Assembly: GCA_018818105.1 (NCBI GenBank)
Contig: JAHISK010000128.1
Coordinates: forward strand, 1-36,678
Reading direction: 5' to 3'
Source of the DNA: Candidatus Omnitrophota bacterium
Lineage (GTDB): Bacteria; Omnitrophota; Gorgyraeia; Duberdicusellales; 4484-171
Length of the DNA: 36,678 nucleotides
Shown: positions 1-36,678 of the stretch, in pieces
How the letters are laid out: each line of letters starts with the position of its first letter
How positions within the stretch are numbered: the stretch's first letter is position 1
Translations under genes and position numbers: made by a program
Notes under the pieces: model-generated
The model's input: only the letters and a program-made list of their open reading frames with translations
What the model was told of the DNA's origin: nothing
Databases searched by the model: none

Positions 1-3000
1 GTCACTCCCAAAAAGCATATTACCTGCACCTGCATAATCTTTTCTTTATAAAACGCCCAGAATATTATATTAAGGTTCCAAACTCGGTTAAATCCACGAA
101 GTATTTTATCCGCTTGTAAAGGCGACGATGACATCCCCCGCGCAAAAATCGCGGAAGACCCCCCCAAGAAATCGACAACCCCTTGTCTAAACTCCTCTAG
201 AATATCACTGTTGTCAAATTCCTTTCTATTTAACTTCGCGTATCTTACCCAAGCCACGTAAGCCGCGTAAAAATATTCATATCCTTTATCAAAGATAGTC
301 GCGATAATTTGTTTTTCTGACTCAATACCGTCGGATACAACCACATTAACCGTCTGCTTCGTTTCATTAAGCAACTTTTTAAACTTTTCACTAAACGGCT
401 CAAACCTCCCAGGAAAAGCATTTAGCACTTGCGACCAAAAAATAACAGCTAAATTAAAATTAGCCATACCGCTAAAATAATACGTTTTATCATGTTCAGG
501 ATTTATACGAACCGCCTCTTGGAAATGGGCTCTAGCATCATCATAGTCTCTTAATCGAAACTTAGCTAATCCCAGAAAATACTGAACTCTTTTATACCCC
601 GGGTTTATATCAACTACACGCCTAAATTGTTCAATCGCCGCCGTATATTTGCCGAGTTCGGCAAAACTCTTCCCGCTCTCATAAAGCTCATCAACCTCAT
701 CACCCGCGCCTACCGGGCTGGATATGATTTTTCCCATATCACGCGCGGTAATACCTCTTTTCACCGGAGAAGAAACAGAAGCGGGCGGCGCGTTAATTAA
801 ATTATCAGTTACTGCCACCCGCGCCGGAGAAGCGGAATAATATAGCGGATCAATTAAAAACATAAGAAATAAACTAAAACCGTCCTCATATTCCATACTT
901 TTCACCAAAGGAGAAGAATTAAGTATTGTGTCCCCTGAACTTACATCATACTTTCTAGAGTGGAGGTCTGACCCTGTTATTTCTAAAAGGGCCTGCATCG
1001 TTACCCATTTCAAGGGCTGCCCCTGTTTTTCCTCGTCGTTATTCATGCTTTCCGTTATCTTGACACATATGGCAATAAATGGTATATTTAGCTTAGAAAA
1101 AAGGAGGAAAAGTCTATGTCTACTAAAGTTACGTTGGAACTGGATATTCAAAAAGCTAAAAACCTCATAAAACAGATGTCTCTTGCCGATAAAATTAAAC
1201 TTTTGAAAGAACTTAATAGGGAAACATGGGGCAAACGTATCGACGAAATTATTAAAAATATCGATCTTCGCCGTAAAAAGTATAAAGTTTCCGCTAAAGA
1301 AATATCTAAAACCATTAAAGAATCCCAAAAAGAATTTCATGCTCGCCGTTATTGATACAAATGTAATAATTTCAGGATTATTAACTAAAGGATCCTGCCG
1401 AAGATTATTGTTATCCCTCAAAAATAAAGATTTCACTCTTGTTATAAACGATATAATTTTCAAAGAGATAGAATTTGTTTTAGCGAGAGAAAAATTATCT
1501 TTACTAATAAATAAAGCGGAAAAAGAAGATATTTTATCCTTTATAAAATCACAAGCTTTATTTTTTAAACCAAAAACAAAAATAAATATCTGCCGAGACA
1601 GGAAAGACAACATAATTTTAGAAACCGCCATAGAAGCCAAAGCGGATATTATCGTAAGCGGAGATAAAGATTTAACAATTCTTAAAAATTTCCGAAAAAT
1701 TCCTATTATTACCCCTAAACAATTCTTAGAATACCTAAAGAAATAAAGACTTCTCCTATCCTCAACTGTTGCCTGAAAAACTTTTCCTTCATTGCAGGGT
1801 AAAAGGGCCTGCAACGTTACACATTTCAAGGGCTGACCCTGTCTCTGTCCGTTAGAGCCTTCCACCTGCTCAGCAAAAATGATAATAGTATCCACATCGC
1901 TTAAATCAACAGAAACGCCCCTGCCCCAACTGCCATAAATAATCACGCCCTTAATATTCTTGCCGTCGTTGTTGCAAAACTTTATATTATTATCTATCTC
2001 CGTTTTGATCTTCTCCCAGCTTCTCGTTCGATCACCGTCAAAAGCCTTTATGCCTGAAAGAGTAACCTCCCTACCCTGCAAATAAGCGTCTTTCATATTT
2101 TGATTTAAAAAACATTTCATACTTTCATAATCTAATTTTTCATCCGGGAACCTCTGCCTCATATCTTTGAACAAGTTATCTATCGCGATATCTGCCCCCT
2201 TAAAAACCGCGCGGGCTAAAGCGGCACTTTCAAACGTTTCGGAATTAAGTAACCTCGCAAAAATATTATTTAAATCAGGTAGGACTCGCACAATATTAAA
2301 ATTTGAGGCTACCCTATATCTAAAAGTACTACAAAACCTAAAAGAAATAGAATCAAGAACAAAAGCTCTGACGAAACGAACATCTCTTATTTTTTCCGCG
2401 ATACTTGAAAGAGGAGAACTTATTACAGAGATAACAGGGTCAGACATCCACTGAGGTATGTGACTTGAAATTCCACCATACTTTCTAAAGGGGAGGTCTG
2501 ACCCTGTTATTTCAAAAAAGTAACTCTTGAAGAAATCGGAATTGGCATATCGACTTTTAAGGTATCCCTTGTCAAGATTACAGACCTGCCCCCTTCCTTT
2601 AAAAAAATCCTTCCCCTCAACGTCACAAAGCTTTTCTTGACGGGTTGAAGAAGATGAAACAGACTTCTCTGCTAACAGCGGACTATCTATTTTTTGAAGC
2701 TCTTTGTTTATCGTCCAAAATATATCTGCATATACCAAAAAACCTCCCGAAGAAGGGAGAATTTGATGAATTTTCGGTAAAAATACCTCAAAAATTATTG
2801 TTCCCTCAAATGAACTTTGTTTAATATTTAATTCTGTTACATCTGGGCTTCGCTTCAAATTAATTATGACCTTAACCTTTCCTACTTTTGTGCATACACT
2901 TTTAATATTTCTGGAAACATTATTTTTCCCATTTGCGCCGCGCAACAAAACTTTTGATTTAGATAAATATGCTGAACCAGCAAATAATTCGTTTCCTATT

Positions 3001-6000
3001 CTAAATTCTCTAACTATATCTCCGCCTGAACTCCCCCATAAAAGCTTATATTCTTCAGCTAGTATTACCGCAAAAGTTGTCTTACCAACCATACTATCAC
3101 CAAATAATTCCCATACATTCCCTTGAGAATCAAATAAAATTTCACATACGCCTACTAACATATAATCTTCTATACTATCTATAAACCCTGAATACTTTTC
3201 CTTAAATATTTGTATTTGATTCAACCCATCCTTATCTCCCCTAAATTCATAAACTATATCCATATAAGAATCCCTTATATCTATACTATTTAGAATACAA
3301 TATTCATAAATTTTATTAAACGCTTTAATAAAATCTTCTAAGATAACTGGGGATGAATTCACATTAACTAAACCAAAAATCATTTTACATTTCAAGGGCT
3401 GACCCTGTATTTTTGGAGATAAATCCAAGGCCGGCGAACTGGAACCGGTGGAATATAGCGGGGCAACAAAATTATCCTTGACAACTTTTTCCTTCTGACT
3501 TAGGATAGTATCTGCCATGAAAGATAAGAAACCTAAAGCAAAAACCCTCAAAAAATCCCCAAAATTTTCTAAAGATAGAGAATTTGCGGTAATCCTTGAG
3601 AAAGTATATGGCGGAATTAAATTGTTATCTGAAGGACAACAAGATCTCAGAGGTAAATTTAGCATGTTATTTACTGAATTCGGTAAACAAAAAGAAGAAA
3701 TTACACTAATAAATTTAAAATTAACTAGAATAACCGGTAAGATAAATGAAATGGATGGCAAGATAACTGAAATGGGCGCTGATATCAAAGAAATAAAAAT
3801 TACTATAAAATCCCACGATATCCGATTAACCCATCTCGAAACCGTTAAATAAACTGACGCCGCCTGCCCGCCGGCGTCAATGAAGAGAACAAAATACAAC
3901 ACGTCCTCTACTCCCTCACCATTAATCGTATTAATACCCTTAGCCGTCCATCTTGTTTTAAAAATCATTTTCATTATATCAGTTACTGCCACCCGCGCCG
4001 GAGAAGCGGAATAATATAGCGGATCAATTAAAAACATAAGAAATAAACTAAAACCGTCCTCATCTTCCATACTTTTCACCAAAGGAGAAGAATTAAGTAT
4101 TGTGTCCCCGGAACTTTCCGAACTTGCAACCAAAGACCCACTCAAAACCCCCCGTATTTCCTGACCACTTATCACCGCGTAGGTGATAAGTGGGTTGATA
4201 ATACGCGGGTTATTGTGACTTCCCGTGAAAACAACTCCGGACACACCGTTTATCGGGAAAGCGACATGCTCAGCGTGCTCGGAATTATTAGTAGTTTTAC
4301 ATTCAAAAATTATTTGGGGATAAAATGATCTCAAAAAGAATTTGCTGATTTGATCGGAAAGAATCGCGGCAAGAACGATACCCGCGAATAGGTAAATCTT
4401 AAATATTTCTCCCCTCTCTGTCCCCGCACGAATCAAACCGGCTAAAGCAATATATTCTGTGAAAAGATTAACCGATTCAACAAAAACAGCAGGGTCAAAA
4501 ACAGCAGGGTCAGCCCTTGCAAAAACAGCAGGGTCAGCCCTTGCAAAAACAGCAGGGTCAGCCCTTGAATTGTGAAATAATGAAACAAAAACCGGCGGGG
4601 CATGCGGCCATACAGAAAATTCAACCGCTAATATTTTCGCCGGCGAGCTAGATAAATCAGGGCCGTCCCCATTTTTCCCCATATTCTGAAGGCTCAAGCG
4701 AGATGATAAATGCTGTAAAACCCTCCTGGTGAAACTACTATTCATAAAAACATCATACTTTTCTCCTTTAACCATAAAATGAATAACCCATGCATAATCA
4801 TTGCTGTCTTTTATGTCTTCTCTGTATTCGTGGCCTTTATAAACACACTCCCCACCTTCTACACGCAATACTTCTCGTAACAATCGCATAGCAGTTCTCA
4901 TGGGCATCTGAACAGTTGAATCTTTTTCTATGAGATACTCTTTTGCCCGCTTTCCGTAATCAGTCTTTGCCTTAGACAAATCAACGATAAACCTTGCCAT
5001 ATTATAGCCGGCTTGATTTAGATGCTGTAATGGTGCCATTACCTTAAGGCTCTTCTCATGTATAAATAACTCTTCTTTGTCGGAATAGGCAAAATGAAAC
5101 ATCTCATGAACACAAACATAGCTCACTATGAAATCTATATTTTTTTCTTCTCTAGGGATTTTTTCATTTATCAAAACCACACCTAAACCCAAAACCGCCC
5201 TTCCCATGCTATTTTTCGGTAATTCATCAGTTATCACTATATGCCTTAAATACTTGCCACTCAATTCTGTTAAAACATTTCCTATCTGTTCATCTTGTCT
5301 TTGTAACGACCTCAGAGCAGAAATAATTCTTTCCTGAAGGGGCAAAGTCTGGTAATATTTTTGTAAATAGCGCTCATAATTAAAATTATAAAAAACCGGA
5401 CCGCTTATCCAATTCTTCTTACATTTTTTAAATAACTCCTCACTAAGAGGAGCAAAAAAATGACGATAGCTATAACCATCCTGTTGCTGTTTTGCCTGGG
5501 ATAAACATTCTTTACCTGGCAGCATTGTTAAATGGGCTTTTTGTTGTGCCTTTGCGGCGACGGACTGTCTCCTTAACAATGCTACATGGTATTGTTTTGA
5601 AGATAGTAAACTCCCGCAACCAACTAATAACGTCAAAATTAAAAGAAGGAATATAGTTGTTTTGGCCAAACTAGCAAAGATTCTGCTCATGGGCGGAGCA
5701 TGAGAAAAAATTGAAAGGCCATGTAATGAGGAGAGGGTAACAGGGTCAGACTTTGAAATGGGAATTGAAAAATATAAGCATGGCTTACAAATAAAAACAT
5801 CGACATCTTTTCCCATTTCAAGGTCTGACCCTGTTTTTTCTGCTATTTCTCCAATGGTCAACGGTTGGACAAGATAATAATCCCTTGAAATATTTGATTC
5901 CATACATGAAGATGACTGAAGCTCCTTTATACTTTCCTCGTTTGAGGAAAATTTCCCAGTTTTCCCGCGCCTCTCAAATAAATTTAAACAATAGCCGTAA

Positions 6001-9000
6001 TTGGAAAAGGTTTTAGCATATTTTTGATAAACAACACCTCCCAAAGCCTTTTCCATAGCCGCATCAACAACTCTACTATTACCCTCTTCTCTAGGAACAT
6101 AGTTAAGATGCCAAGAAAATCCGCCAATACCCATATTAATCTGTTCTATGAACTTTCGTAAGTCCTGTTTTACTGAATTCCTACGGCTTTGGAAAAAGTC
6201 AAAAATCCTCTCCATCTCCCTACAGTCATAACAATGGCCAGACAAAAGCAAACACAAGCGGCTTTTAACCTCTTCCATATTTAAAGCCATGTAATCCTTA
6301 AAAAACAACCGCAATTCATCATAATCAATAGCATCAAAAATATCGTTAGGCCTAACCAGATTAATATGATAATCAGCTATATTAAAAAAATTAACCAGAA
6401 AATAGAAACTAAACAAATCTATGTCTTTCATAATTTCATGAAAGCATTGATCATCATCAAACCCAATAATTGCCCCGCAATTATCCGGGAAACGTGAAAC
6501 CACTCCAATACTAGGCCATAAATGACTAAAATTACCAACATGAAAATCCCATTTTCCCGTGACAAAAGCAAAAGCGAATAACCTCGTAAAAGAAGCTTCG
6601 AAAGTTGATTGATAAATAGCAGAGTCATCTGACCGGTAATCCTGCGCCTGCCTCCTCAAATAGATCGTATCATAGTTTTTAATTCCGCAAATCTCTCCTA
6701 AAACCTTCTGTTCCTTTGGAATCGGCAAGATAAAATCACACACATTAACCTTTAGCATCCGGGCAAGAACAAACGCAACCGCCTCTCGAAAATAAACATT
6801 CTTACTCGGATATAACGAATTCCACCTGAGTCCGAAATCAAGCGGCGGCGATTCATTCTTACAAAAATATATAAACCGGTCATCCGTTACTAGTCGTTCA
6901 ATATATGTATCGCGGCCGGTTTGCGTAAGAAGTTTCCGCGTATCCGGATAGGGATAAATCTTTCTATACTTAATTATATTTTCACCAGAACCGGGCAAGC
7001 AGGCAGGTGAACTGCTTTTCTGTATTGGAATTACTAATGATATAGCTGTAGTAACTCTTCCTTTTTTTTCTACTTGCATAGTCATACCTAATTCTTCCGC
7101 AACTCTTTCAGCGATCATATATTTGATGCCTGGATAAGAAATCCTTGACGGCAGCAGAAAAAGGCGGTTCCCGCTTATCTTAATTACTACATTCTCCTCT
7201 CTCTTTAAAGATAATATCGTGAATGCTAAATTATATCTAGCCGCCTGCGGGAATAAAATATTAATCAAAATAAAAGCTACTTCATAGGGAACAGCCTCCA
7301 CGAAAAGTGAACTCCTAAAAAAATCTTTTTTGATTTTATGTTCAAAACGATTTTCATTAAATCGAGAAAACAAAAAATTAATAATTTTCGACACCACATC
7401 ATTTATATCTATATTTTTTCTTTTTTCATCTAAAAACAACTCTATTCCATCACAATAATTCATGGCATCTTCAATACCTACTCGTAAAATATTATATTCA
7501 CGGCCATTTTCCGGCAGTTGGTTCAGGAATTCATCCATTATATTTTTTTGCGACCTTATAAAACTGACGATCGCCTCAAAAAAAACGGTAGTTTCTTCTT
7601 TTAACTTGATATCTTTAAAAAAATCGTCATACATAGAATCTAATGTTTTGCATCGCGGTTTAATCTTCTCTTCATAATACGTCATCATTCCTTCATATTT
7701 CCTAAAATATAGCGTTGGATCACAATAACGAGATAGTAAATATTTAAAATAATCTTCGGCAAATATTTTAAATAAAAATCTTTTATCTACATTTTTTATC
7801 GATGAAGAGACTTTCGAAGAAGAAGTTGAAAAATCAATTTTAAAAGATACCTCATTTATTCTACTGCCTCCGTTTTTTTCTATCTTCTGCGCGGTAATTA
7901 TAATTCCCCCGTTACTCGGCCAACCAGCCCTAACAAACACTTCAAAATTCTCAGACCTGACAAGAAAACCTATACTTATATCACTAATAGTTAGCTCCAT
8001 TTCCTCGCCAAAGAAAACCGCCCTAAGGCAGTTTCCTTTATCATACGTCCGCGTCACTCCTGTCCCATTCAACACCCGCCACCCCCATGGAGGAATACTT
8101 ACCGCTTCTTTCATAAAAAGAGAATCCACTCGGGCTATACGATCCAAGAAAGAAAAAATCACCTTCTCTTCTCGCATTATACCTGTCAAAATTTCTCTTA
8201 TATCTCCACGATGCTTTGTCCAATTCTCCTCACTTATATAATTTTTTAAACATACGAGTTTTTCAAAAAGCATTAAAATATCAACCTTTATATTTCGAAA
8301 AAACGGATTTTTCTTTATTGCCAACAACACTTCAAAAAAATAAGGGTCAATCGCCTCTAATTTTAAAGCGAGTGGATTTTCTTCATCCGCTAACGGAACA
8401 TCGACTAATTCCTCGTTCCCAATAATAACCTCCTGATTCTGACCTTTCGCGGATACAACATCTTTATTTTCTTTCAATAATTCATTAAAAAAATCCACGC
8501 ATTTTTTTATTACCTCCCAAGAATTTTTTTCCAGCGGCAAATTTAAAATAGCGTTCAAAAAAGATACCCGTTCTTCCCACAATTCGGTTAAATCTTGCCT
8601 TTCCATCGTCGCGTTCGAACGCTTGACTTCCCTTTTATACCTAGACACTATTTCCTCAACACAAGTATTCAAGCATTCGTTCAAAGAATCAAAACCCGCT
8701 TGGCTTAACTGTAACCTATCTTTATCTTCTTCCTTCCCCGCGAACCACTCCTGAAAATACTTCATCGCGGCAAAGTAATCTCCTCGATAATAAGCCTTAA
8801 CCCCTAATTGTAATATTTTTAATTGGGCAATATACTTTTTCACCGATACCGGAGAAGATAAATATCCTTTATTCGAAAGTGGAGGCCTGACCCTACTATT
8901 TTGCATCAGCAAAACATCATAAAGAATCATAAAAGCAACATACCAGTTTCCTAAAGAGACCAAACTCAAAAATATCAACATCTCACCAAAATAAATAGGA

Positions 9001-12000
9001 TGCCTCACATACCGGTAGAAACCTTCAATGCGAAGTGGCCCTTCATGAAGCTCGCCTAAAGGAATTTTGCGATACACTCGCCAGACGATCAAAGAACCAA
9101 ACAGACCAAAAGGTAAAAACAATATATGGCGTTTCCAGCAAAGAGGCTTACAAACCCAGCCAGCCAAGTGGCCCGCAACCCAAATCTCAGGAACAATACG
9201 GCTCAATGACTTTTCATCGGGTTTAATGAAATGAAATATCTTATGTTTTAACCATTTCACATCCCCTTTCTTAAGAAAACTCCTGAATCGCTTAATCAAA
9301 GCTATCTTAAAAATCGGTGAAGATGTTTTTGTCTTATGCAATACTTTCGCAATATAAAGGGTTGGTTTTTGGATTGGGTTTTGTCTGAGTTGGCTGCTCC
9401 TGAAGAATTCAAGAAGCTGGAAGGCATCAAAAAAGTAAGCCTCTCCCTTAGAATCACGAACCTTGACCATCCATAGCCTCAAACCCGACCTCACCTCCTG
9501 CTCAACCTGTATCACTTGGCTAAAGCGGTTAAAGATTATCTCCTTATATGCTGCCACCGGACTTGAAATCATCCTCATATCCCAATCATCCAGAGGTGAG
9601 GAAACTTTTTTACTCAGATACTCCCGGTAACAACGACGATGAAAAACTACGATACGATTTTTAAGAACCTTTATTGCATAATCACTAGAAAGAATATATT
9701 CCCCGCTGACAAAAAACATCCCTTGTAGTATCCAATCATTAATAAGCTCTTGCCTATTGGCTAATTCTTGAAGACGCTGATACAAAGCAGGGCTGGTCCT
9801 TGACCGGCCCTGAGGATTTTTCAAGAAAACCTTTATCTCCTGCCCAAACCGATCGGTGATTTTTCCATCTTCGCAGGCTAAAAACACAGTATCTTTAAAA
9901 TTTTGCGCGTAGCCCTTAAAAACAAACCTGTAATAAGGCTCATTCATCAGCGATCCGCCTAAATATATCTCTATGTCAATATCCGGACGATTCAACAACT
10001 GCGCCAGATCTTTTTTCTTAATTTCAGGCTTACCTCCATCACGCATGATCGCATTGATAAGCGCCGCATTAGCATCATCCGAAACTAACACTTTTCCCCA
10101 AACGACTTGATTAAAACTAAATTTTTGTTGTTCATACACATACCAAAACACTACGTTTGATAAAGAGTGCTCTAGACTATATCCTATTTTTGGATTAAGG
10201 TAATCAGGAAATATCTCTAAATGGGTGAAAATAAGTACGCTACCTTCTGTGCGGCAATGGCACTCACCAATTAGCATCCCGCCTTGCGAAAGCCTGACAC
10301 AAGACAAACCGCTACCCGTTTTACACACAAACTCCAAATCATAAACATCTTCGCCTGATTGCGTTATAACCCTTAATTCGCCCTCGCAAATAGAAAACCG
10401 GCATACTGGTCCAAAATTAAAGATGGAAATCTTATTACCACGCTCTTTCTTCGCGCAAAAAATCATCTTATGCTTAAAAAACCTAAAGGCAAGGAGCCTG
10501 TCCGCATAAGGCAACTCTGTAAGAGAAATTTTATTTTTACTTAGTGTATCCAAAAAGTATTGCCTGAATAAATCGATAGCTTTCTCACTCAACCCTTCTG
10601 CTAAAGCAAGACAACAAGCCATTTCATAAGCGTAAGGACTCTCAAAAATATTCGCAACCGTAAGCCCTGCCTTTTTCAATTGGCCCCTCAATTCCTTTGA
10701 TACAGTTTCCCGGACGCGCTTAAACTCATTCCTATCCTTAAAAGGTTTCGAATGCTTACGGGAAACAAACATGACCTCCATAACATCCTCTTTAGACTGC
10801 GAACCAATTTTTGCCCCATACAAGCGATATAACGCCATTAAATCCGACAAATTCACATCCAGACTCCAATCACCGCTAAAATATTCGATATTCGGAAAAA
10901 AAAATTTCTTAAAACACATCTCAATAAAATTCTTAAGACGCTTTTCTTCTGGCCATGTAAGATTTCCTTCCCCTTCTGTTTCTTTAATCCTGTTTATAAA
11001 ACCCTTATAAAAAGTTCCAATGGCCATCGTGACAATATCTTCCATAAACCTCTGAGACATTTTGCCATCCTTAAAAATAGTGGCGATCTTTTTAAGTATC
11101 CGCGAGGAACCAAACTCCATTAAATCTCTCCATACACGCCCGGCATCTACCGGTGTATCAAGCCATAAAAGCTCAGCCACTTTCAACGCGTTCTGTGTTT
11201 CTAAAAGCCTCTTCTCCATAAAATCAACATCAAATCCTTTAATCCTTTCTTCAATCTTACGTAAAGCAACCATCGCCGGTTCCCCTCCAATGACGCCTAA
11301 AAGCTGTATCGCCAAAAGATCCGCATTAGAGCCAAGCCCCTCATTTTCGTAATAAAAATCCTTCAAAACTTTTACCAGAAAATCATAAAGCGAGCTTTCC
11401 TGAGCTATCACAGCAAAAAGTACCTGTTGAAGTCCGGTCATAAGGCTTCCCTGTTCAAAAAATACTTCCTGAGCGGCACAATGCATAATAGTTTTAATTA
11501 TATCCCGCCTTCTCGCCTCCCCTTTATTCCACAAAAAGTTCTTTGCCAATTCCAAAACGGCTTTTTTTCTCATACCTTCTTTACGAGAAACAATTTCATA
11601 CAAAAACATACAAATTTGCGCTTCTAAAGAATATCTACAGGCCACCGGAGGAAGATTTCCTGAAAGCTTAACGATATGCTGCAACGGTACCAATAAAAAC
11701 TTTTCTCCTCCAGCCATTGTTATTTGGTTAGGCATGCCAGTGCCTGTTTTAATAGAAACCAATGAATTCCTATCCAAAGAAGTATCCGGCGGGGAAAGAA
11801 GTTTAACAATAACACTGCCATCTGCTTGTTCGTCACACTGAATCTCAAGCTCCAACCATCCAAGAAGAATACGCATATGGCCGCCTAATTCAGCCACATC
11901 TACTTTTACACTATTTAATCCTTCGGATGAAGAGCACAAGAACCGCAGACGAAAATATGGTAGAGGCCAGGCATCAATAATTTCTAATTCGGTTTCAATC

Positions 12001-15000
12001 CGCTCCAGCGACTGATACATCCGTCTATACGTCAAAATTGAAAACATCACCTTGCCGACAAAAATCCTGAAATAATCCCACCAGTTAAGGTCTTTGGAGC
12101 TGATCAGCGTCTCAATTAATTCCGGATTCAGGCGCAAAAACGCGCGAATAGTCTGATACTGCACAAAAGGCAGATAAAAACACCGAACAAACCGCCCCTT
12201 GTCAGCCAGGCAGGCAGTTTTGATACTATTGATAAACAACCGCAGAAAAGATAAATTGAGGTTACCCTCCTCACGCACCACCTGACAATTACGCATCCCG
12301 GCAGCAACTAGAATATCCGCAGTCAAACGTAACCTCTTCTCAATCATGATCTCCGTATCTTCATTTACAACTTTCTCAACCAATTTTTGATAAGCCGCAT
12401 TCCTTACGTACAAAACATTGATTAATTCAGGATGATAGCCGAAAGCCGCAACAAACACCTCCATGAGATAAAAATAGCCAACCCCGTCTCTTGCTTCCCA
12501 TAACTCTGCTAATTTATCTTCCATTTCCAAAATAAGCTGTTTTCTTATATCAGCAAAAGTGTCTTTTAAATCCACGTTAGTTATTTTATCTATGACTACC
12601 GGTTTAACCAGATGAGCGGTAAACAAGAAGAGTCTACAAAAATTATCTACGTTCCCCTTGTCAAGCTGCGCAAAAGCGCTTCGCTTCAAGGTAGTAACGG
12701 CTTCAACATCATCACTACCTCGATTTACAAGAAATGCACTTATCTCCCGCGGTTCCATAAATTCTATAAAACTATTAATCCCAACGGCTTTCTCAAGCCC
12801 ACGACAAAACACATTCCTATCAAAACAAATACCCTTGCTATAATGAGAAGGCATATAAGATTTAAACATCTTTCTGCTATCTTCAAGGCGCGCAGAATGA
12901 ATATTATATAATCTGACAGCTAGCCGGTTTTCACCACCTTCCTGGCATGCTATATTAAATCTGATATCAAATCCTTCTAAGACCCTCCTGCTTTGGAGCC
13001 ATATCTCAACTAAAGCCTTAACCTCAGCCACATCAATCTGTTCCCGTGCTTCTTTATCATTCAGATTGTTCCTTTCTTTTAATAATTTTCTAGCCTCATC
13101 CCTGCTAAAACTCCTGGGTTCACCTCCATTAGGAGTAAAAATATTATCGGCCCAGTTAACACAAGGCTTGTCACTCGCGTCAGCCCAGCGCGGTCGAACG
13201 ATTCGATTCAACAAAAATCTTTTAAAAGATACCACACTTATTGGCGAAGAACAGCCCGATTTCAACCCTTTAAAAAGTGGCTGGCAAGCCTTTGGCTGAA
13301 ACAGCTGAGGCAATGCCGCCTCTAAAGGAGAACTTGTTTGCTCTTCCTGTCTTAAACACCCTCCGTTTCGACCCACATGAGCCTTCATCCAAATGGGGCT
13401 GGAAGCCATGTTTGTTTCAATAAGACCTACCACCTGTTTTTTTATTAAATCAAATTTTCTTTTCTGGCCTTCTAATAATCTAGTTGTTATAACAAAGGCT
13501 CCAAAAAGCGCCCGGGAAGTCCTCTCATCATTACCAAAATAGACAAAGCTCCTCCTGCCACTTTCAATAAGGACACACTTCGCTTCCCTATAAAGCTCAG
13601 TACTTAACCGTGTCCTTTGCTGAAGAGATAAATTCCAATAACCAGGCTTTTTAACTTTTTTGTAAAACGCAGAACTGATCGCGTAAATTTTTTCAAAATC
13701 AGCGGCTGATTCATATTTGGCCAGAAAATATTCAACAACATAATAAGCGGTCGCTTTTTGCTCAAAAGAATAAGCCTGCATCTTCTGCGACAACTCATAG
13801 GCAAAACAACCGAATTCCAGCAACCCCTTTTTGCCTTGAACCTCCCGAGCTACAAAAAGGACTATTTCTTTTTGTGAAGAATTAAGTGTTATCTCTAAAC
13901 AACCTTTACCTTGAGATGATCCATTCGGAATAACGTAGCGGGGAAAAAACTGCATGGAGAAACAAATCTTACAACATTCTTCATGAAAAAACTGCCCTAG
14001 CCGGCTCCTTATAAGTACAACAAAACGGTTTCGTTCTTCTTCATTACCTATATCCTGTAAATAACCTGATCCCTCTTGCGGATTTAACAAATCTATTAAC
14101 GGCCTTAAAAGACAATTCGGTGCTGTTGCGAAATACCCCAAAAGTGTCATCCCCGCGAAAGCGGGGATCCAAAACATTAATGGAATCAATGGATTCTGGA
14201 TTCCCGCTTTCGCGGGAATGACAGAAAACGTTATTTCGCAACAGCGCCAAGATAGAAAACAGAAAGAAATGCTATGGGCGATATCTCTTATAGATTTGGG
14301 AATGGAATACCCAAATTCTAAATCAGGATTTAACAACAGCGCCATAGACAAAAGAATTGCAGCTTTATCCATGCGGCCATCATCAAAACCCGATATGCCT
14401 CTATCATATTCTACCAAGACATTATTCACGTAATATTCTCCTAATATGTGCTTAAACCTCTCTATCATCTCTACATTCTTCTTTTGTTTGACCGGACTGG
14501 AAACTCGGCGGGAATTCGGTTTTCGGTCCAAAACAGGAGAAGCAGTCGGCATATTATTAACCAATACCTCCAGCGCGCCTTTTAATCTCTCATCACTGAA
14601 CTCCTCAACCGGAGAAGATTCCACATATATACTGCCTATAGAAAAATATATTTCTCCTAATAATCGCTGCACGCTTGCGAGATATTTACCTCCTCTCTCA
14701 TTTATATTCGCGAATTCAAGAACAATATTCACCACATTATCACTCAGTGCAATTTTCATTCTCTTACTTATAAGAAAATAAGCGTCCCATAAAATACTTT
14801 CGGCGGGTTCGAATAATTGGTTTAAAGAAACCTCAGTATTTCCATCAACACAACTAATCATTCTTTCAAATTCTTCTAACTTTTCTAACCCAGGTTTACT
14901 TTCCAAATCTTTTACCGGCGAAGAAACAAAAACATTTTGATTACATACTCTTAAAAGATTAGTTGGGGTAACAGGGTCAACCATTGAACTGACAACTGTA

Positions 15001-18000: not shown

Positions 18001-21000
18001 ATCTCTGATGCGTGTGCCAATACAGCCCCCTGCATATCATTTTTATACGCTAATTCTTGAGCGGTTTTCAACATAGCGATATAGGCCTGTCTTTCTTTTA
18101 GTCCTGGCTCCCCTTTAAACAGATTATTGCTCGGCAAAGCAAAAACCTGCCAGCCCTTCGCGGAAGACTTAGGAAGGAATCCCTCAATTCCCACCTCAAG
18201 TAGTTGAACCTGTGCTTTACCATGCAGTCTTCCGGTCTCATCTTTTAAAGCTAACGTTGCAAAATGAACTCTTCCCTCCCCTAAAGAGTTTACTTTCTGG
18301 GCTACATGCTGATCTCTGACATCCCAAGTACATACACCCGTAGCCATGCAACCCATAAAATGAAAAAAATCATCAAAAAATCCCACGTACAACTGCCGGC
18401 GGCTCAAGCAATCGACAATCTTGTAATTCTTTTGCTCATCCGCAATCCGCGAAATGATTCCTTTCATAGAACCAACATCTCCAAAGACACCGCTCATCCT
18501 GAATTGTATTTTATTGATCAGCATCTGATGACGAATTTCATCAGGATCTTCCGTAGCGTAACGCTTGATCATCTTCTCTCGCGCTCTGATTCCAGCTAAT
18601 TCTACTATGATGTTTTTTCGACTCAAAACTCCATTTTTAACATAAAAAGATTTCTTGTCATCATCCTGGAGTCCATCCACAAAATCACCGATCTTTTCAT
18701 ACAAGGTTGTCGTCTTTGTATCACGCCACGTGTCTGAGAAAAAAACTCCCCATTTATATAACCAGGCCCGATTCCTACCCGCGTCCTCAGGAACATTGCG
18801 GTATTGCTCTAACACAAAACCCTTTGACTGAAACATAAAAGCAGCCAGCACCTTGAGATCCGCTTCAGACAAATCATCACCAGAGGCAACTTTTTGAAAT
18901 ATGCTTGTTAATGCCTCTTTAGTCCACTTATCTGAAGCCCACAATGACAGTTGACGGTTAAAAGCATCACGCTGCTTTGAATCACCCTGATAGACCGTCA
19001 CCGTCTCGGCAACGGGAAAACAGTAAAGCTGACGCAATCCCGGATCAATTTCTTGTGTCCGCGCATCCCCACGATCTGCGATGACTTTTTTAAGCCTCTC
19101 TGCCATGGCTTCATAATCTTTAGCCGTGTAGTTCTTTATGGGGATAAACCGGGCCAAAAGCAACAGCTCATCCTTTATCGTAATCCCATATTTTTTCACA
19201 AACTCTTCGCTCAAACCATTATATCTTCCCCAGGCCATTTCATCCTGAAACTCCCTTTTTATATCCAGCAAAAACGTAGTGATAGCATCAGGGTTATCTT
19301 TATTATCCCGGTAAAATTCAAAAAACTTTGCCGAGATTACAGATACGCCAAGCCGATAATATCCTTCTATGTCTTTTTCAAAGTGTAGCCACTCCTCATC
19401 TTTCCATTTGCTCAAATCAATCAGGCAATCAAGTGTTTCCAGGACGCCATAGATATTTTGCGGGGCTATCCTTTGTCCTCTCCTGGCAATGCTAAGCAAT
19501 ATTTTCTTCAAATTATCGAATCTTCCAGCATTCTTTATGCCTTTGATCAAATCACCAAATCCCCACGGCTGAATACCGCCTAAAGCGACTAATACCCTCG
19601 TCAGAGGATTATTAAAAGGAATCACCCGCCGGATATCATCGATATCCTCGGTTTTTAATCCGATATTTTTTAAAGAAACCAGAACGGCGGGCGCGTTTGT
19701 GTGGATGATATCCAATAATCGTCTTAAAAAATCGACCTCCCGCAGAATCTCTTCAACCGTTTCAAAACGACAGGCAAGATACCCTAAAGATTCCCAAAAC
19801 ATTCGACGCAGCTCGTCAGTATCATAGGCATCAATCTCTTGCTGAACCCGATGAGAGAGTTTGATAAGCCGCGGATTGAAGATAATCGTCTGAAGCTTTT
19901 CCTTATCATCAAAAATCGCAAGCAAAGACCTCCCATCCTTAGGAATTATCCAACTGACAGGAAACATCTTCACAAGAATTCTCACCCTCTTCACAAAGTC
20001 ATGCTGGTTCTCCTGATTGATAGTCCCGTCTGCAAGCGCTTCCACCAAAACCGGATGTCCAACCAAAAAAACAACCGGATTGTCGATCCCCAGCTCTTGA
20101 AATAATGGTTTCAACAACAAAGCCTGAACAACACATCTAAAGTTCGCCAGGTTAATCTCACCTTTTAAAACGGCTTCTTTAAAAGAGAGGGCCTTCGAAA
20201 CCATGTCGGAGACAAAAGGAACTTCTTCAGCAATAACATCGACAAAAAGACTGACAAACTCTGACCAGGTTGATTTAGAAACCAACTTCGCATTCAAGAC
20301 CTCCTGAATGGCCTCCAAATAGACTTTCATAACTTCCCCACCAGATGACCAGCCGCTGTCTTTTTTGATGAAATCCGACCTTAATAAAACCGCCGCGTCC
20401 TCAATATTCTCACTCGACAAAACTTTATCTTCGCGTAATCCGTTCAATATCCCCAATGCCAAATTCCTGTTTTCCACACCTCCCCTTCCGTAACCTTCAT
20501 ACTTGGTGCCATCAAACGACCGACCGCTGGCAACGACATGGATAAGATCAAAGGCGGCATCGATGTTCTTTCTGGTTAAACAATGATCCGACATCAGCCC
20601 CTCTAAGGTGTCGTAAACATGCATCGGATGGGAATCAGAATAACTGGGGTCGACCGCGCTGAAGAAGTTCCGAACCTTCTCTTTATCTTCTCTTAAAATC
20701 AGCCCGCGCTCGGCAAGCATGCTCAGTGTTTTACGTGTTCTTTGCTTAATATTTCTGTTTAACTTTTCCATCTCGCTTAATTCCCTGTCGAATATATCTT
20801 TTTTCCATTCCGGCTCTTCCTCACCAAGGATTTCTTCAACAACACCGAGCCGCATCCTTTGTTCATTGAGACAGCGAAAAAAATCCACGTCGTAAGGGCC
20901 TAAAACTTCCCTTTGCAACAGTCGCAAAAAATAGCCAACATCCTCTGCCGCAGCACTCACAAAACGCCGGGACCACCCTTGGCCTTCCCTGTCCAGAGAC

Positions 21001-24000
21001 GAGAGCGTCCATTCGGACAGGCTGATCTTATATGTCTCATCCCACAGACGCACTACCAAAATCCAATTCGCACCATCGACAGATATATCGGCCACCCCCT
21101 GCTGAAACAAGTATTTAATGACACCGTTAAAAACCGCGACAGGCTGATCGATAAAATCATGAAAGATACTCACTCCTCCATCAGAAACACCTTCACAGGA
21201 CGGCAGAATGACGTTAAAAACATACGGGACCCAATGATAAAACTCATAGAGCGCGGCTGTTTTGGGTAGCGCCGTAAAAAGCGCATCGATAAAACCATGA
21301 TATTTCTGAAAAACAGCCGCCTTAACCCAATCCTTTTTGTCCATAATCGAGTTTTTTGCATCCAAGAACAAAGATATCTTCTCCACTCCCAGGGAGATCC
21401 CTATCTCGACACGTGCCTTGGAATGATCAATCGGGACTAACTCACCGACGAAGCCGCAGGATTTTTCCCGTGGAATCTTATATTCTGGCCGGTCGTATGC
21501 CGCATAGATCACAGCCGTGAGTGACGCCAGTGGAGCGGGTTCCGGAGCCAAAGCCAAGAGTCGTTCGGGAACAACATCCGCAGAAATATCCTCACCCGAT
21601 AAATAAACGCCCTGCTCGTAAAGATACCGAAGGAGATCTGCGCGAGCGCTTTCTTTTTTTTCCAAGACACTGATCATACCCCAGATAATATGCGACGATT
21701 TTTTCCCTTCCGCCAGAATGATCGCTTTTAACACGCCAGGGCTGACGGCAAACCGCACAAGATCATCTGGAGGCGGATTATTTGTATCGAAAAGCCAAAG
21801 GACGTTCTTTATCTGCAGTAATGACGATCTCAAATCGTTGCAACCCCTGAGAACCAAAATCTCCAAAAAATCTTCTGTTATAATATACTCTTCAAAAGAA
21901 TATTTATTGGTCAAGATCAAAATATCGTCGATCTCCTTCAATAATTCATTTATCTGTAGATTATTCGAGCCGGCAGACACCATCCGCAAAAGGACATCTG
22001 TGGAGAAAAAAGTCTGACGAGCCAAGGGGAGATTTTTGGTCTTATCAATAAAACTCTCAAGAAATCCAAACCTCTCTGACACGCGGCCCCCTCCTAAACT
22101 GGCCAAAACCGTCAAAAGATCAATGTTTAAAAGAACACCTTCAGTCTGCGCTCTAGCCAACAAATCCGCAAATGCACAAAGACAAACTCTCTCATTCTCA
22201 TTGCTTTGCCGTGATTGCTGATGAATAATCAGAAGCAATGTTTTCGCCTTGGTAAGATTGTTCGCATTGATTGTCGACTGTTGCGACCAGCCGAGGGATC
22301 GACGCAGTGATCGTTCAATCAGCTTGAACGCGGCTTCCCTGGACTTCCTCCTGCGATCCTCAGCCAATCCATTGCCACGACCATACTTTGACTCCTGCGC
22401 GAACCATTGACAAAACTCCTCATCAAGGCCAGTAAACGAAGGCTCAACCAGATAAGCATATTCTCCTCTTTCCGGATCGGCTACAAGCCATCCTTTTTCA
22501 AGAAACCCGGCTTCCAATTCCCCCGTAAAAAATCCCGCCCGTTCCAAGGGATACCTCTCGTAAATACCGTCAGCCTGCCGAACCAGGTCCATCAACACAT
22601 AGACCCGGTTCTCCACAATGCTTGTCTGCGTTGACGCGTTAACACCATCCAAAAAGAGATCGCACGCATCACGGAAATTATTTTTATTGATAACCCCCTC
22701 ATTAGCCCATCGTATGATGGCATCAAAATACGGTCTACCGAAAGCCTGATAGAAATCATACGAGTACGCCAACGAAAGACCCGCATTAAAAGGTGGCGTA
22801 AAGAGATCCAGGGCACAGATGACAGTGTCGTGTCTGACAACATCATTTTTGGCCAGCGCAATCAATGCCCCAAAGGCCGCGTCTGCATTATAAAAATAAC
22901 CATCAAACTGCCTCTCCCTTGGCAGCATCCTGGTGATCGCCCGGAAAATATTCATCACCAGATAAACGTTATCGTTATCAACCTCCGGCAACGAAAACCA
23001 CAGGAGCATAGACTCTAAAATTTCGGGGCCGCGAAAATTACCCGTGCCACGCAAGGTTCTCTCCACAAAATCCGTCATTGCTTGCGCGTTATTTTGCGTC
23101 ATAAAGCCGCGTTCAAAAAGCGTTGTTACTAACGTTCGTATCTGAGTGTTTTCTCCCGCGCGCATCTTTTCCAGCACATTATCGACCACACCCCTGTCCT
23201 GCTCCAGCAAAATCCTGTGGCTTAACCCTTCATCTTCGCGCGGCCTGATTTCCGCCTGAAGAATTCTTAAAAGATAATGCTGATTCTCTAAAAGATTCAG
23301 TTCTTGCGCGCTCCAGTCAATCCAGACATCATCCTTGCGACGGAACCGATCTATGGTCCAGCCGGAAATATCAATATGAAAAGACGCGCTGTTCCCATTG
23401 ACTAAAACCAGCGTACGTTTATCTTCCGAAATCGATAAATGAACAACCCCCCGCAGTATCATTATGGCCGCGATCTTGCGAAAAACAGCAACAAGATGAC
23501 TGTTGCGGCTCTCCTTCGGAGCATGCTCCAAATCCCGCGTCAGGCTTTTCTCTAAAACAACCAGATTCTGCTCAGGCACAACAACCCCAAACAAATCATA
23601 AAAAAGCTCTGAATAGACAAAAAAGTGAGCCGGATACTCCTCATAAAGCCGAGAGAATAGCTCCACAATCCGCCTATGAAGCGGATGAACAACAAACTCC
23701 CTTAATTGAGACAGCATACCCAGCAAGAAACCTTCCGCACCTGGTTCCAACTCACGTTCATACGCATTAGCCTCTTCGCCGACCAGAGCGACCTGAAGAT
23801 ACTTTTTTCCACCCCGATTGACGACTCCAATCGCCTGAGCCCTATCTCCTATTTGCGCAATGCGCTGACGTCCAACGAAACTAACACTAGCACCACTCTT
23901 GCCGGCATTCTCATTTTTCTGGCAAGGACTAGATATAATCACACGGCCTTCCATTCCGTCTTCAAGAAATAGCAGGGTCAGACCTTGAAATGGGAATTGG

Positions 24001-27000
24001 ATAATATAAGCCTTGCTTACAAATAAAAACATCGACATCATTTCCCATTTCAAGGTCTGACTCTGTATTTTTTTTGAAGATATTTTTCCACAAAGCATAA
24101 AGCCGCATATATGACAAGCATTCTGAAACATCAAATAAGCAACATTAACAGAGTCAAACCCTGAAACCTGAAAGTCCGAAACCGGCGAGGCGTTTCGAAG
24201 ATAAACTTCGAGAATACTCGAAGAACTCTGCTGCTCTTTTCCTTCTAATGGAAAAGAATCTTTCTGCATTTTCAAAAAGCTGAACGGATGCCGGCCTTCT
24301 GTTTTATACTTTTCCACCATCACGGCCGCCAACATAATAGAAACGATTTTTTGAACACGGTAAGCTATTACCTTCAGAGATTCTTTTTCGGCGTCAAATA
24401 ATATTATTTTACGGCTATATTTCAAATATTTCTCGATATCACTAAAACAAGGCAAATCATATTTCTGACAAACTTTTAAAGCCTCATCCACTAATTGAAA
24501 CATATTAAAAAAACCTTTCCTTTCAAACGACAATAATTTTCTATTCGCCAACAAAACTTTCCCTTCCTTATAAAAATACTCCAATCCAAAAACATATTCT
24601 CCTTCATGAAGCGTCAAGTTTGCTTCCATGTCATTAATTCCATCGGCGGCGTAAATAATCTTACAAGCCAAATCCACAGCATACGCTTCGCCTAAAACAA
24701 CGGAATCGTACACCGGAGATGAAAAACGCCGCTTTTCTAAACAACCCTGAGGTATAACAGGGTCAGCCCTTGAATTGTGAAATAATGAAACAAAAACCGG
24801 CGGAGCATGCGGCCATACAGAAAATTCAACCGCTAATATTTTCGCCGGCGATGAATTCCCGAAAAACAAAGCTTTCCAGTTTCCGGTTTCAACCACGTTA
24901 CGCATGTTCGATGGGTATATAGCGGCAGTAACCGCTGAACGAATATATACAACACTGTGCTTACCAACCGGCGAGGCGCTCCCCGTATCCTCTCGTTTCT
25001 CCGCTGTCATATTCACAGAAAAATTACACCGACACGACACAACACACAATTTTAAATTATAAAAACCCAACCTTCGCAAGAAAAATCCAAATGGTACTAA
25101 ATCTAAATCACTTTCACAAATTTGCGCGCCTTCTTCATAATACAGCCGCAAAATCAATTTAATTATTTTTAGTTCATTTTCGCTAAACTCCTCAATTACC
25201 ATCCTTCGACTAATTTTATTTTCGGGAAAACTTGTTTTCTCTAAAAATTTCCTCCAGATACCCATCCTGTTTTGTTTAACTAATAATGTATGGATATTGT
25301 TTAACGCTTTTATAATCAAAGGCTTTACTTCCTCCATTAATCCATCAAATCCTTTCATCAATACGCATAACATGGCTACAGATTCGGCATGACTGATATC
25401 CTCTAATTCAATCCTCTCTGCTAATTTGGATAATATCTCAAAAATATAACTCCCTAAGTCTTTACCTTTCAAATCTCTAACTTCTCCGTCTTCAAAAAGA
25501 ACATCTTTTAACCATAACCAGTGGAATCTTATGTCTTTTTTTTCAAATACCCTAAACAAAATCAAGTCGTCAAACACTGTCTTATTACCCGCGGAATCTT
25601 TTAATCCTAAAGAATACCACGGCGCGCTATACGATGGATTAAAGAAAAACGAATAGTGAATGTTTGTTTCCGGATCAACCCATCCCAAAACTAAAGCCTC
25701 CTCAAGAAAATCCCGAACAAAAGCAGGGGAACTATTTTCTTGCCTCAAATCAAACAAATCAACCTCCGGCTCCCCAAAAAATAAAGAAGCAACCTTTCCC
25801 TCCACCGGAGAAAAAATACCTTCCGCTAATATTCTCGCCGGCGAGCTAGATAAATCAGGGCCGTCCCCATTTTTCCCCATATTCTGAAGGCTCAAGCGAG
25901 ATGATAAATGCTGTAAAACCCTCCTAGGGTCAGACTTTGAAATGGGAATTGACAAATATAAGCATGGCTTACAAATAAAAACATCGACATCATTTCCCAT
26001 TTCAAGGTCTGACCCTGTTTTTTCTCTGCCAATGTATCTACAGAAAAGGGGACATGCAACAACAGGGTCAGACCTCTCATAAGTTATTAAACTAACTCCG
26101 TCCCCTATTACAAAAAAAGATATCGCGTCAGGCATTGATATATACTTTGACCCGGAAACCGGAATAACCGCGCGGGGTAAAAGGGCCTGCAACGTTACAC
26201 ATTTCAAGGGCTGACCCTGTTTTTCTATAGATACCGAAGAAGAGCCTACCTTCTTTACAAATTCAAATCTCTCCAACACCGCTGCCCTCTCTTTAGGATG
26301 TAAAATATCACAGCTCTTTACTAAATCATGCCACCGAATAGCGTGCCAAGCATAAGGATAATCACTCTTTTTAAGCTGATGCGGTAATGTCTTATTTAAA
26401 ACAACCTTTTCAAATACCAACAGGTCATTCTCTTTACGATAAATACTTAACCAGACATCATCAAAACAGTTAATAAATATTCCGCCTTCTTTTAGCATTA
26501 TAGCAGCATAGGTTTGATTCGTTTTTATTACCTTAAACGGCTCCTGCCAATACAAAGCATTTGTACTAATAATCACATCGACTTCCTTTATTCGTGTAGC
26601 AAATGATCCCCGAACAAAATGACAATTTTTAAGCAATTCTTCACCCTCTTCTTTTTTATTACTTTTAAGCCACTCTCTTAAAACTTGCCTAATAGATAAT
26701 TTTTTAGCATTTTTCACCGCGTCTTCCCCCTTATACCCTTGATAAGTAAACCAGCAATACTTAGGATGATTGCTTGAATCCGTTTTTAAATATCCCATAT
26801 ATTTCCCATCTAATGAAAATAAATAATAGTCATGACTTTCCCAATTCTTATAATTATCTACGTTCTCATAGATAAACCCCGGCATTAAACTATCAACAAA
26901 TAAAATTTGCGCGTTAGGATTCTTTTCTTTAAAAAGTATAAAATCATCACTACCTATAACCGAAGGTGGCACTCCCGCTCCTATTTCAATAATATCTTTA

Positions 27001-30000
27001 ACCTTAATTTTTTGTTCTGACAACAACTCATATGGTAAATACCCACGGCCAAACTCCATCTGATATTTCTCCCCTATTGCTAGGTCAACATTACCTACTG
27101 TTGCTTGAGTTATAGATTCTAAGACACTACGGATATCTTCTATAACAAAACAGTCTGTTTCTTGCTGCGTCAATTCATAAAGGCGATTGTATACTTTGAT
27201 AAAAACAGAAATACCATTACAAAAAGTAAGTGCTAACTCAACTAATTCTAAACCAACCTCTTTTCGATACGCTAATGTTTTTAAGTTTAAACAAATTTTA
27301 TAATTTTCACCATCAATGTCATACTCATACACAACCTTTCCGGAATCCGGCTTATCACTAAACATTTTTCCGTTTATCACTAAATAAACTTTATTACATC
27401 CTTTCCTTTCACCAAGGTTATTAATAATTTTTATCGTTTCATCCTGACTCCCACATAAAATATCTAAATCATCCAGCAACGGTTTCAATTCAAGCGCTTT
27501 AAAACACTTTATATTAGAACTACTCTTTTTTCGAAAAAGAAGACCTGATTCTGTTGTATCTACGCTACTACTTTGCCTTCGTATGGTAATGGATAATGGT
27601 GAAGGGATGGAAACCAAAAGGGAAAAAGAAAAGATTAAGTGGTAAACGGAAAAAACAGCAGGGTCAGACCTTGAATTGTAAAATGATGAAACAAAAACCG
27701 GCGAGGCGGCGACGCTATCAACAATCTGCAATCTACCATCTACCATCTCTTCTAAACTCGACGGGCTGGTTGTTAATCGAAATAAATGAAATAGCAGGGT
27801 CAACCCTTGAAATGTGAATTGAAGAATATAAACCTGGCTTACAGATAAAAACATCAGAATCATTTCACATTCCAAGGGCTGACCCTGTACTTGATTAATT
27901 AAAAAGGAATAATTACCCTTGACACGCCTCAGAATATATGCTAAATTTTGGACAATGATAAATAAATTCTTCTCGAACACACGCAGAAAAGCATTAGGTT
28001 CCGCGTTAATCGATATATTCAAAGGCAATGCTATCGCTATTTTTATTGGAGACGTATTTATTAAATTAAACTTTATATTTAAAACGGTATCTTTAAGCGC
28101 CCTAGTAATTGTTGTAATTATAGGGTTATCGCTTCTTCCTAAGGAGGAATAATATGACCATCGCGATATTATTAGCGATTGTAGCGCTCCTTTTTGGATT
28201 ATGGTTTGCCATAGAACAATATAGAATAAAACATTTCCACCGCTAAAAGCAAACTTATTTTCTTTAACTAAGCAAGAAGAACTATTCTTAGCGCCGTTAC
28301 CGAACCATCCCGACGCCCAACTCATTCCATACTTTATGATTATTTCTAATAAAGACTGAACTCCTGATAAATCCGGTACCAAGTTTTCTATAGGCGCGGG
28401 ATCTCCCAGCATTTCTCTAAATATCTCCTCAAACGGTTTCTCAGAAACGTCATTTGCCGCCTGCCCGCCGGCGTCAACGAAGAAAACAAAATACAACACA
28501 GCCTCTACTGCCTCACCGCTAAACGTATTAATCGGATTCATATCATTAGCCGCCCATCTTGTTTTAAAAATCATTTTCATTATATCAGTTACTGCCACCC
28601 GCGCCGGAGAAGCAGACGCTAATCTATTATAAAAATCTGACCAGCAACCCCCTGCTATCGGCGAGGCGGCAGACTCATTAGACGAAAAACTGCTTTCCCA
28701 TAAATCACTCAACGCCGCGAGGAATTCGTTTTCACAATCATCATTGTTAACTTTAACTTCCGCTAAATTAACCGCGGCTCCGTTGTCTTTAATACGCTTT
28801 AATCCTCCCTCAAATTTGCCGATACCCGCCGTTTGAAAGAAAATCCAAAATATTTTGCGTTTCATATCATTAATAAAATCTATATGCTCTGAAATCGCCG
28901 AATGCGTTTTTTTAAAATCTTTCTTTAATCCGGCATAAAAAATAGAAATCTCCATAGCCCCGCTAACAACATTATTTAAATAATGCCTCAACGTCATCCA
29001 TACATCTTTAATTAACTCCGTTTTATCTTGTTCCGACACAATGCCTCCAGATAATTGGGGCCAAAATACAGGAAAGAGGTTCCCTGACAAAACTATAGAA
29101 TTATCTTTGCAACAATCTACCGGCAAAACCGAATCACCCATTATTTGAATACTCTCCCGTATCTGTTTTATATGCTTATCATAACTCTCACCCTCGTTTA
29201 CCGGGTAAGAATTAGAATATTGGTTTTCCATAACCTTCACCTCTAGTCCCTTAGCCATTTTTACCACCGGTGAAGACAAAACACCAAAAGCGCCATTCCT
29301 AACCGCAGAGCTGATATCTTTTTCATTCCCTATTTGAATGCCCTTAACCCTATTAGCATATTGTCTAACATTAAAATAAACACGCGCCGCCAACATACAA
29401 ATTTCCACCGCATTCTTATAAATTCGAGCTGTATAACTCAAAAACTCTAAAACCTCTTCTATCTCTTTAATTGTCTGAAAATTCATAGAAGATATTCCCC
29501 TTAAAATAACTTCTAACCCCTGTTCCTCACTATGCAATAGCCATTTTTCAAAAAATTCTTTATGCCCGCGATTTATACCACAAACATCATTAATATTTTC
29601 TTTAGAAATAACATACTGCTGATTTTCTTCAAACCGGTTTAATAATAAATCAACGCTGATTTTTAATTTGCTCTGGACAAAAGATGTTTCACTCAACAAT
29701 CTTAATAAATATTTCTGCACCCCGCTTAATATTTTCGGCTCCATACCCGAAGCATTTACTTTATCTTCTGACAATTCTATTTTTAATTCCCGCCGGGTAC
29801 AATACCAATTAAGCCCATTATCTATATCAAATTTATCCCCTATCTCAATCCAAGCTTCCATTACTTCATTTAAAACATCTTCAATTGTTAAAAAGGATTT
29901 ACCTTTTCTTAATAAAATTTTTGCCGCCTGTTTAACAATTGCGGTAACAATCCCAAGTTTTCTATATTCTTTCGAATAAATATGCACTTCCTTAATTCGG

Positions 30001-36668: not shown

Positions 36669-36678
36669 AATTACTAAA

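Follow-up and report, generated by a model that had tools for sequence, protein, structure and literature searches.

The window analysed here is contig JAHISK010000128.1 of a Candidatus Omnitrophota bacterium, taken at its full length of 36,678 nucleotides (C61 below). Its host genome amounts to 2.03 Mb in 157 contigs, about 1.4 Mb of which were covered by the analysis, and most of the sequences compared are draft metagenome-assembled genomes (MAGs). A single minus-strand open reading frame (ORF) runs through the window from end to end, and on the opposite strand lie six short cassettes: three pairs of the VapBC, HicBA, and MNT-HEPN-like toxin-antitoxin (TA) types, two small coiled-coil ORFs (CC1 and CC2), and a pair of small membrane-like ORFs (Table 1). 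The initial annotation had described these cassettes as genes nested within a giant gene, and in this it was right: all six are plus-strand genes, antisense to a minus-strand host frame that reads through them with 0 stops over 230, 126, 187, 254, 82, and 110 codons, in order of position.

The giant frame contains no stop in 12,225 codons, against 460 to 1224 stops in each of the other five frames and, since the window is the whole contig and the ORF is cut at both ends, the complete ORF must be longer than this. Its 36.7 kb without a stop exceed the 20 kb taken to mark a giant ORF in an Omnitrophota genome. By codon usage, the giant frame behaves as coding DNA: its codon score is close to that of ordinary host genes over most of its length, falling below zero mainly at the cassettes, the repeats, and a few other stretches. 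An alternative genetic code is unnecessary, the other five frames being rich in stops and the cassette genes ending at normal ones. Three further contigs of the host are also open from end to end (C119, with 7,185 codons; C77, with 2,186; and C37, with 1,717), and another, C113, is open for 2,308 codons before a stop is reached. Because the terminal repeats of C61 are common to C119 and C113, contigs of this type probably belong to a single giant gene, or to a few, split at repeats.

The genes encoding VapB, HicA, and HEPN share the codon register of the giant frame (phase 0), so that the leucine codons TTA and CTA and the serine codon TCA would each be a stop in it. None of these codons is used for any of the 27 leucines (eight in VapB, eight in HicA, and 11 in HEPN) or the 23 serines of the three genes; TTA is the commonest leucine codon of the host, and 5 to 8 stops per phase-0 gene would be expected under host usage. 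Their operon partners PIN, HicB, and MNT, which the overlap of the genes puts in another phase, use TTA or CTA for 29 of their 40 leucines (Fisher 5e-10 versus the phase-0 genes), and all six TA genes carry 3 to 16 stops in each of the two other antisense frames. Thus, stop-forming codons have been purged in the giant frame and only there, the synonymous codons of the TA genes being free of stops in exactly that frame.

The TA genes inside the giant frame also keep their conserved residues and their operon form. In the first cassette, an ORF resembling VapB15 lies directly upstream of the PIN gene and overlaps its start, a pairing kept in the nested loci of other genomes, and the acidic active-site residues of the PIN protein (D6, E43, D87, D90, and D109) are invariant in an alignment of eight nested PINs. 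By this active site and the cognate upstream antitoxin the cassette fits VapBC, with toxicity and neutralisation as predicted activities. In the other two TA cassettes, HicA lies next to its HicB partner, and the MNT motif, GSKARGTSSPRSSDVD, fits a GSx10DxD-like pattern in a protein adjoined by the HEPN protein.

Table 1. Features of the window, in order of position
Feature	Position	Strand	Details
Giant open frame	3..36677	minus	12,225 codons, open at both contig ends, no stop
Interspersed repeat ACAGGGTCAGnCCTTGAA	960..27888	both	22 copies, 0.05 expected; several adjoin cassettes
Sigma-70-like promoter of the VapBC cassette	1060..1088	+	TTGACA-17-TATATT, 11/12 consensus, TG before the -10 box
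VapB-like antitoxin, phase 0 to giant frame	1116..1355	+	NF047401 1.1e-6, below cut-off
PIN toxin (VapC, TIGR00305 type)	1339..1746	+	PIN_3 1.3e-20, TIGR00305 3.5e-23
Small coiled-coil ORF CC1	3517..3852	+	opposite-strand codon score above giant frame
AF2212-like antitoxin fragment, 24 codons	15177..15251	+	Pfam 0.0022, below cut-off
HicB antitoxin	15340..15567	+	Pfam 2.2e-10
HicA toxin, phase 0 to giant frame	15564..15797	+	Pfam 2e-18; GSH present
MNT nucleotidyltransferase antitoxin	16153..16509	+	NTP_transf_2 1.7e-10; GSx11DxD motif
HEPN protein, phase 0 to giant frame	16494..16886	+	Pfam 1.6e-18
Small coiled-coil ORF CC2	17248..17454	+	picked out by opposite-strand codon score; promoter 10/12
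Small membrane-like ORF, first of pair	27955..28152	+	ATG start
Small membrane-like ORF, second of pair, 30 aa	28154..28246	+	open reading frame
PGK, GH77, and GH13-like enzyme fragments	30063-30227 and 31503-33800	minus	in giant frame

A survey of opposite-strand ORFs by codon usage recovers the cassette genes and adds others on further giant contigs, all of them antisense: a DUF433 with DUF5615 pair (4.5e-20 and 1.4e-19) and a second VapBC-like pair (PIN 2.6e-8) on C119 and, on C37, an antitoxin-like ORF paired with a PIN-like one (PIN_6 0.0011, a weak match). A third coiled-coil ORF, a relative of both CC1 and CC2, is nested on C77. Of the six cases the membrane pair is the weakest, its first ORF having a P0 of about 0.4 by synonymous resampling (computed on the longer ORF with a TTG start, 27919-28152). 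Promoters, which the initial annotation had assigned to every cassette, were judged by consensus matching only; they are good for VapBC (11/12) and CC2 (10/12), but the 9/12 match of HicBA is equalled by many sites nearby. Candidate -35 boxes of the TTGAC type lie at 3478, 16125, and 27919.

The arrangement recurs well beyond this contig. Among 37 genomes of the same family, two additional genera have TA genes nested in wholly stop-free loci, in every case antisense. When named genomes were scanned with the alignment of the eight nested PINs, 80 loci were compared, 16 of which, from 10 Omnitrophota genomes, are nested antisense, with the frame open over the entire locus examined (3.4 to 12.4 kb); the ten include the records of G008 and G019, two members of the host's family whose loci are identical to JAMWBQ01 and JAHJHM01 (Candidatus Omnitrophota). 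One Elusimicrobia locus is nested antisense in a frame of 10.6 kb; an additional Omnitrophota locus, whose frame measures 3.0 kb, represents a weak case. None of the PINs from other phyla in the 80-locus set is nested in a long antisense frame, and all nested PINs in the scan are antisense. Leaving out the weak case, antisense stops at offset 2 are absent from all 17 nested PINs and from only three of the 62 free ones (Fisher 1e-14, a value that overstates independence because some rows are related). All 12 nested VapBs, which come from eight genomes, share phase 0, and they encode 0 of 94 leucines by TTA or CTA and 0 of 40 serines by TCA, the corresponding counts in the nested PINs being 83 of 254 and 25 of 127. 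What had been proposed from one stretch of DNA, genes nested antisense in a gene whose own frame stays open, is therefore general, with the stops purged in the giant frame; no cassette holds such a stop, and none of the related cassettes identified interrupts a giant frame.

Between genomes, the similarity of nested loci is mostly confined to the cassette, with most of the flank similarity ending there. The nearest relatives found of several nested TA genes are the nested TA genes of another genus (64% for the VapBC of C119 and 58% for HicB), and one genome has two nested copies of a PIN cassette that are 94% identical over 689 bp and thus stem from a recent duplication. Since nested cassettes resemble the nested ones of other genera while their surroundings mostly differ, these comparisons suggest a pool of frame-compatible cassettes common to Omnitrophota giant genes. 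On the PIN tree the nested state is strongly clustered, yet it requires about eight state changes, at least three of them on well-supported branches, so that a single origin of nesting is unsupported. One VapB-PIN cassette lies among ordinary genes of an Omnitrophota genome (L237, 2819-3656) and has nested relatives on the tree; its antisense frame is still open over 804 nt and its VapB has no in-phase stop, as if the cassette had recently left a giant gene.

Selection on the two strands can be compared in the 94% duplicate. The ratio of non-synonymous to synonymous substitution rates (dN/dS) of its PIN gene is 0.13 on nine substitutions, a weak estimate; in the 249 bp beyond PIN the dN/dS of the giant frame is 0.24, with 14 synonymous and 16 non-synonymous substitutions (p = 4e-4, from site counts). 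Inside the cassettes, the giant side shows stop avoidance, and it may be under amino-acid constraint as well.

The recognisable modules of the giant frame itself are fragmentary, and consist of GH13-like, GH77, and N-terminal PGK stretches, the last with 46% identity over 56 aa to another host locus. In the giant frames of C61, C119, C113, C77, and C37, the tetrapeptides SSPV, SSPA, and SSPL have a frequency of 2.2-3.5 per 1000 aa, compared with 15 occurrences in 276,554 aa (0.05 per 1000) of the other host genes; several more Omnitrophota genomes also have them frequently in their giant frames, as though they served to link modules. A VIPAKAGIQ...WIPAFAGMT repeat at 14115-14264 is stop-free in the giant frame and has 88-100% identity to at least eight other host loci, and the AGGGTCAR core of the interspersed repeat ACAGGGTCAGnCCTTGAA is about six times denser in the giant contigs than in the rest of the genome. 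An origin of the giant modules as copies of host genes was rejected, as a tblastn search with the giant proteins, covering 1.3 Mb of the genome, returned only the PGK-like stretch, the VIPAKAGIQ repeat, and a stretch of C119 with 22-29% identity to four loci. The window has no Rfam match to known structured RNAs such as self-splicing introns.

A search with the middle segment of the giant gene found no orthologous giant gene in 57 relatives. Its GH77 part matches a GH77-like stretch of G025, a relative of the same family, at 31%. Contig C3 of this genome (L150, L160), which carries that stretch, is 60,962 bp long and consists almost entirely of a single open frame of 20,296 codons; lacking any PIN, HEPN, or HicA match, it represents a candidate giant gene without such cassettes.

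The explanation that we favour, with a probability of roughly 0.6 for the whole of it, is that the window is the interior of a giant gene of Omnitrophota, pieced together from protein modules and interspersed repeats, into which short cassettes, mostly TA operons, were inserted antisense, passing a filter imposed by the reading frame and being retained through addiction. An insertion would survive only where the giant frame stays open, and a gene in the antisense offset-2 phase, with an overlapping partner in offset 0, would pass this filter most often. The remaining stops of the giant frame would then be removed by synonymous change, giving rise to a pool of frame-compatible cassettes able to spread among Omnitrophota giant genes. 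Once inserted, a cassette would be kept by addiction, any deletion that removes the antitoxin supply being punished. The outcome would be a giant gene studded with addiction modules, where any protection of the giant gene is a by-product. In host genes, windows of 201 bp are open in 9.3% of cases at antisense offset 2, in 1.9% at offset 0, and in 0.2-0.3% in the two sense frames, which are never open at 402 bp in the sample; nested cassettes are thus expected to be antisense and short. TA operons would dominate because they are short and because addiction would punish their later loss.

Several observations weigh against this explanation. In the host genome both PIN_3 genes are nested, but only one of four HicA genes and one of 13 HEPN genes, figures that do not demonstrate an enrichment of TA genes over the rest of the genome. 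The giant-frame dN/dS over the PIN gene of the duplicate, 0.24, rests on the same nine substitutions as the estimate for PIN. The 130-aa HEPN protein lacks the RX4-6H motif of active HepT toxins, so the pair at 16153-16886 is classified as MNT-HEPN-like and not as an active HepT system. Finally, CC1, CC2, and the membrane pair match no family above cut-off in profile searches; the recognisable proteins that the initial annotation saw in all six cassettes are confirmed by profile matches for the three TA pairs, VapBC, HicBA, and MNT-HEPN, and for these only.

Other explanations assign the cassettes a role towards the giant gene. It is possible, and we entertain it tentatively, that they are dedicated dual-coding addiction cassettes, in which TA operons would have evolved to be readable as protein on the opposite strand, spreading between giant genes and making the giant gene addictive to lose. 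The stabilising role proposed in the initial annotation, in which nesting is favoured since losing or truncating the giant gene carries a penalty, would agree with the several TA types found at intervals along the giant contigs and with the nested TA genes of ten other genomes. We consider it unlikely, because the frame filter and addiction at the level of the cassette account for the same facts, and because a cassette that has a promoter of its own would survive deletions in other parts of the giant gene. The cassettes might instead regulate the giant gene, the other role suggested there, through antisense transcripts that disturb its transcription or translation, as their uniform orientation and the good sigma-70-like promoters of two of them would allow; however, the orientation is already accounted for by the frame filter, and regulation requires neither TA proteins nor conserved active sites, which makes this role quite improbable. 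Frame filter plus cassette addiction is the simpler account, covering orientation, small size, and TA content without any benefit to the giant gene.

The remaining alternative is that the open frame across the cassettes is due to chance or to an assembly artefact, or that the giant frame is not a gene. The genome is indeed a draft MAG, and C61 is bounded by repeats that it shares with C119 and C113. Chance openness was nevertheless rejected by the antisense statistics of host genes and by synonymous resampling: across 622 other genes of the host, no more than 0.1% of windows of about 700 bp are free of stops in a given antisense frame, which puts the probability at about 0.001 or less for a cassette of this size. 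Phase-specific codon purging, the recurrence in other assembled genomes, the host-like codon score of the giant frame, and the published giant ORF of Velamenicoccus archaeovorus (PMC10066038) also speak against it. For the pattern as a whole this alternative is refuted, and we give it hardly any weight, even though chance might still account for the openness of one cassette or another, for instance the membrane pair.

Should translation of the giant frame indeed continue through the cassettes, they would represent a systematic bacterial case of dual coding on opposite strands over long stretches, in which each host gene contains several operons of known families and the arrangement extends across a phylum. 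The cassettes would also offer a direct test of the end-to-end translation of giant genes, since the purging of opposite-strand stops in unrelated genes is hard to explain otherwise. They point to a habitat of TA modules that is missed by annotation allowing one frame per locus, and bear on how giant genes grow, with insertion filtered by reading frame. Literature searches on TA modules in giant genes, nested antisense TA modules, Omnitrophota TA modules, and Elusimicrobia, which did not cover preprints, returned no title or abstract describing the arrangement; its parts are known, whereas the arrangement, its phylum-wide recurrence, and the phase-specific recoding appear to be new.

Mobile DNA tolerated in coding genes, with the host frame staying open, is known from in-frame repeats such as the Rickettsia palindromic elements, which are short and do not constitute genes, in contrast to the two-gene opposite-strand operons described here. 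With chromosomal TA loci, the cassettes share their families (VapBC/TIGR00305, HicBA, MNT-HEPN, and DUF433-DUF5615), their overlapping two-gene operons, and their motifs, namely the PIN acidic residues, the GSH of HicA, and the GSxDxD of MNT, but they differ in lying antisense inside another frame, with codons purged of its stops. The giant gene resembles the giant ORFs already reported from the phylum Omnitrophota, among them one of 39,678 aa in V. archaeovorus for which peptides were reported (PMC10066038), in exceeding 20 kb, in having few annotated domains, and in its poor conservation between relatives. Its GH-like fragments are in line with the degradation of surface polysaccharides suggested in that report, whose main text, unlike the present account with its nested TA genes, does not contain the word 'toxin'. 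Genes embedded antisense in a longer gene are also found among the overlapping genes of E. coli O157:H7, such as asa, ano, laoB, and others (PMC6294744, PMC5960689, PMC5810103, PMC9927249). The E. coli cases are described as short novel ORFs, with overprinting within an older gene given as the origin of some of them, whereas here it is established TA families that are inserted, with the host frame reading over them.

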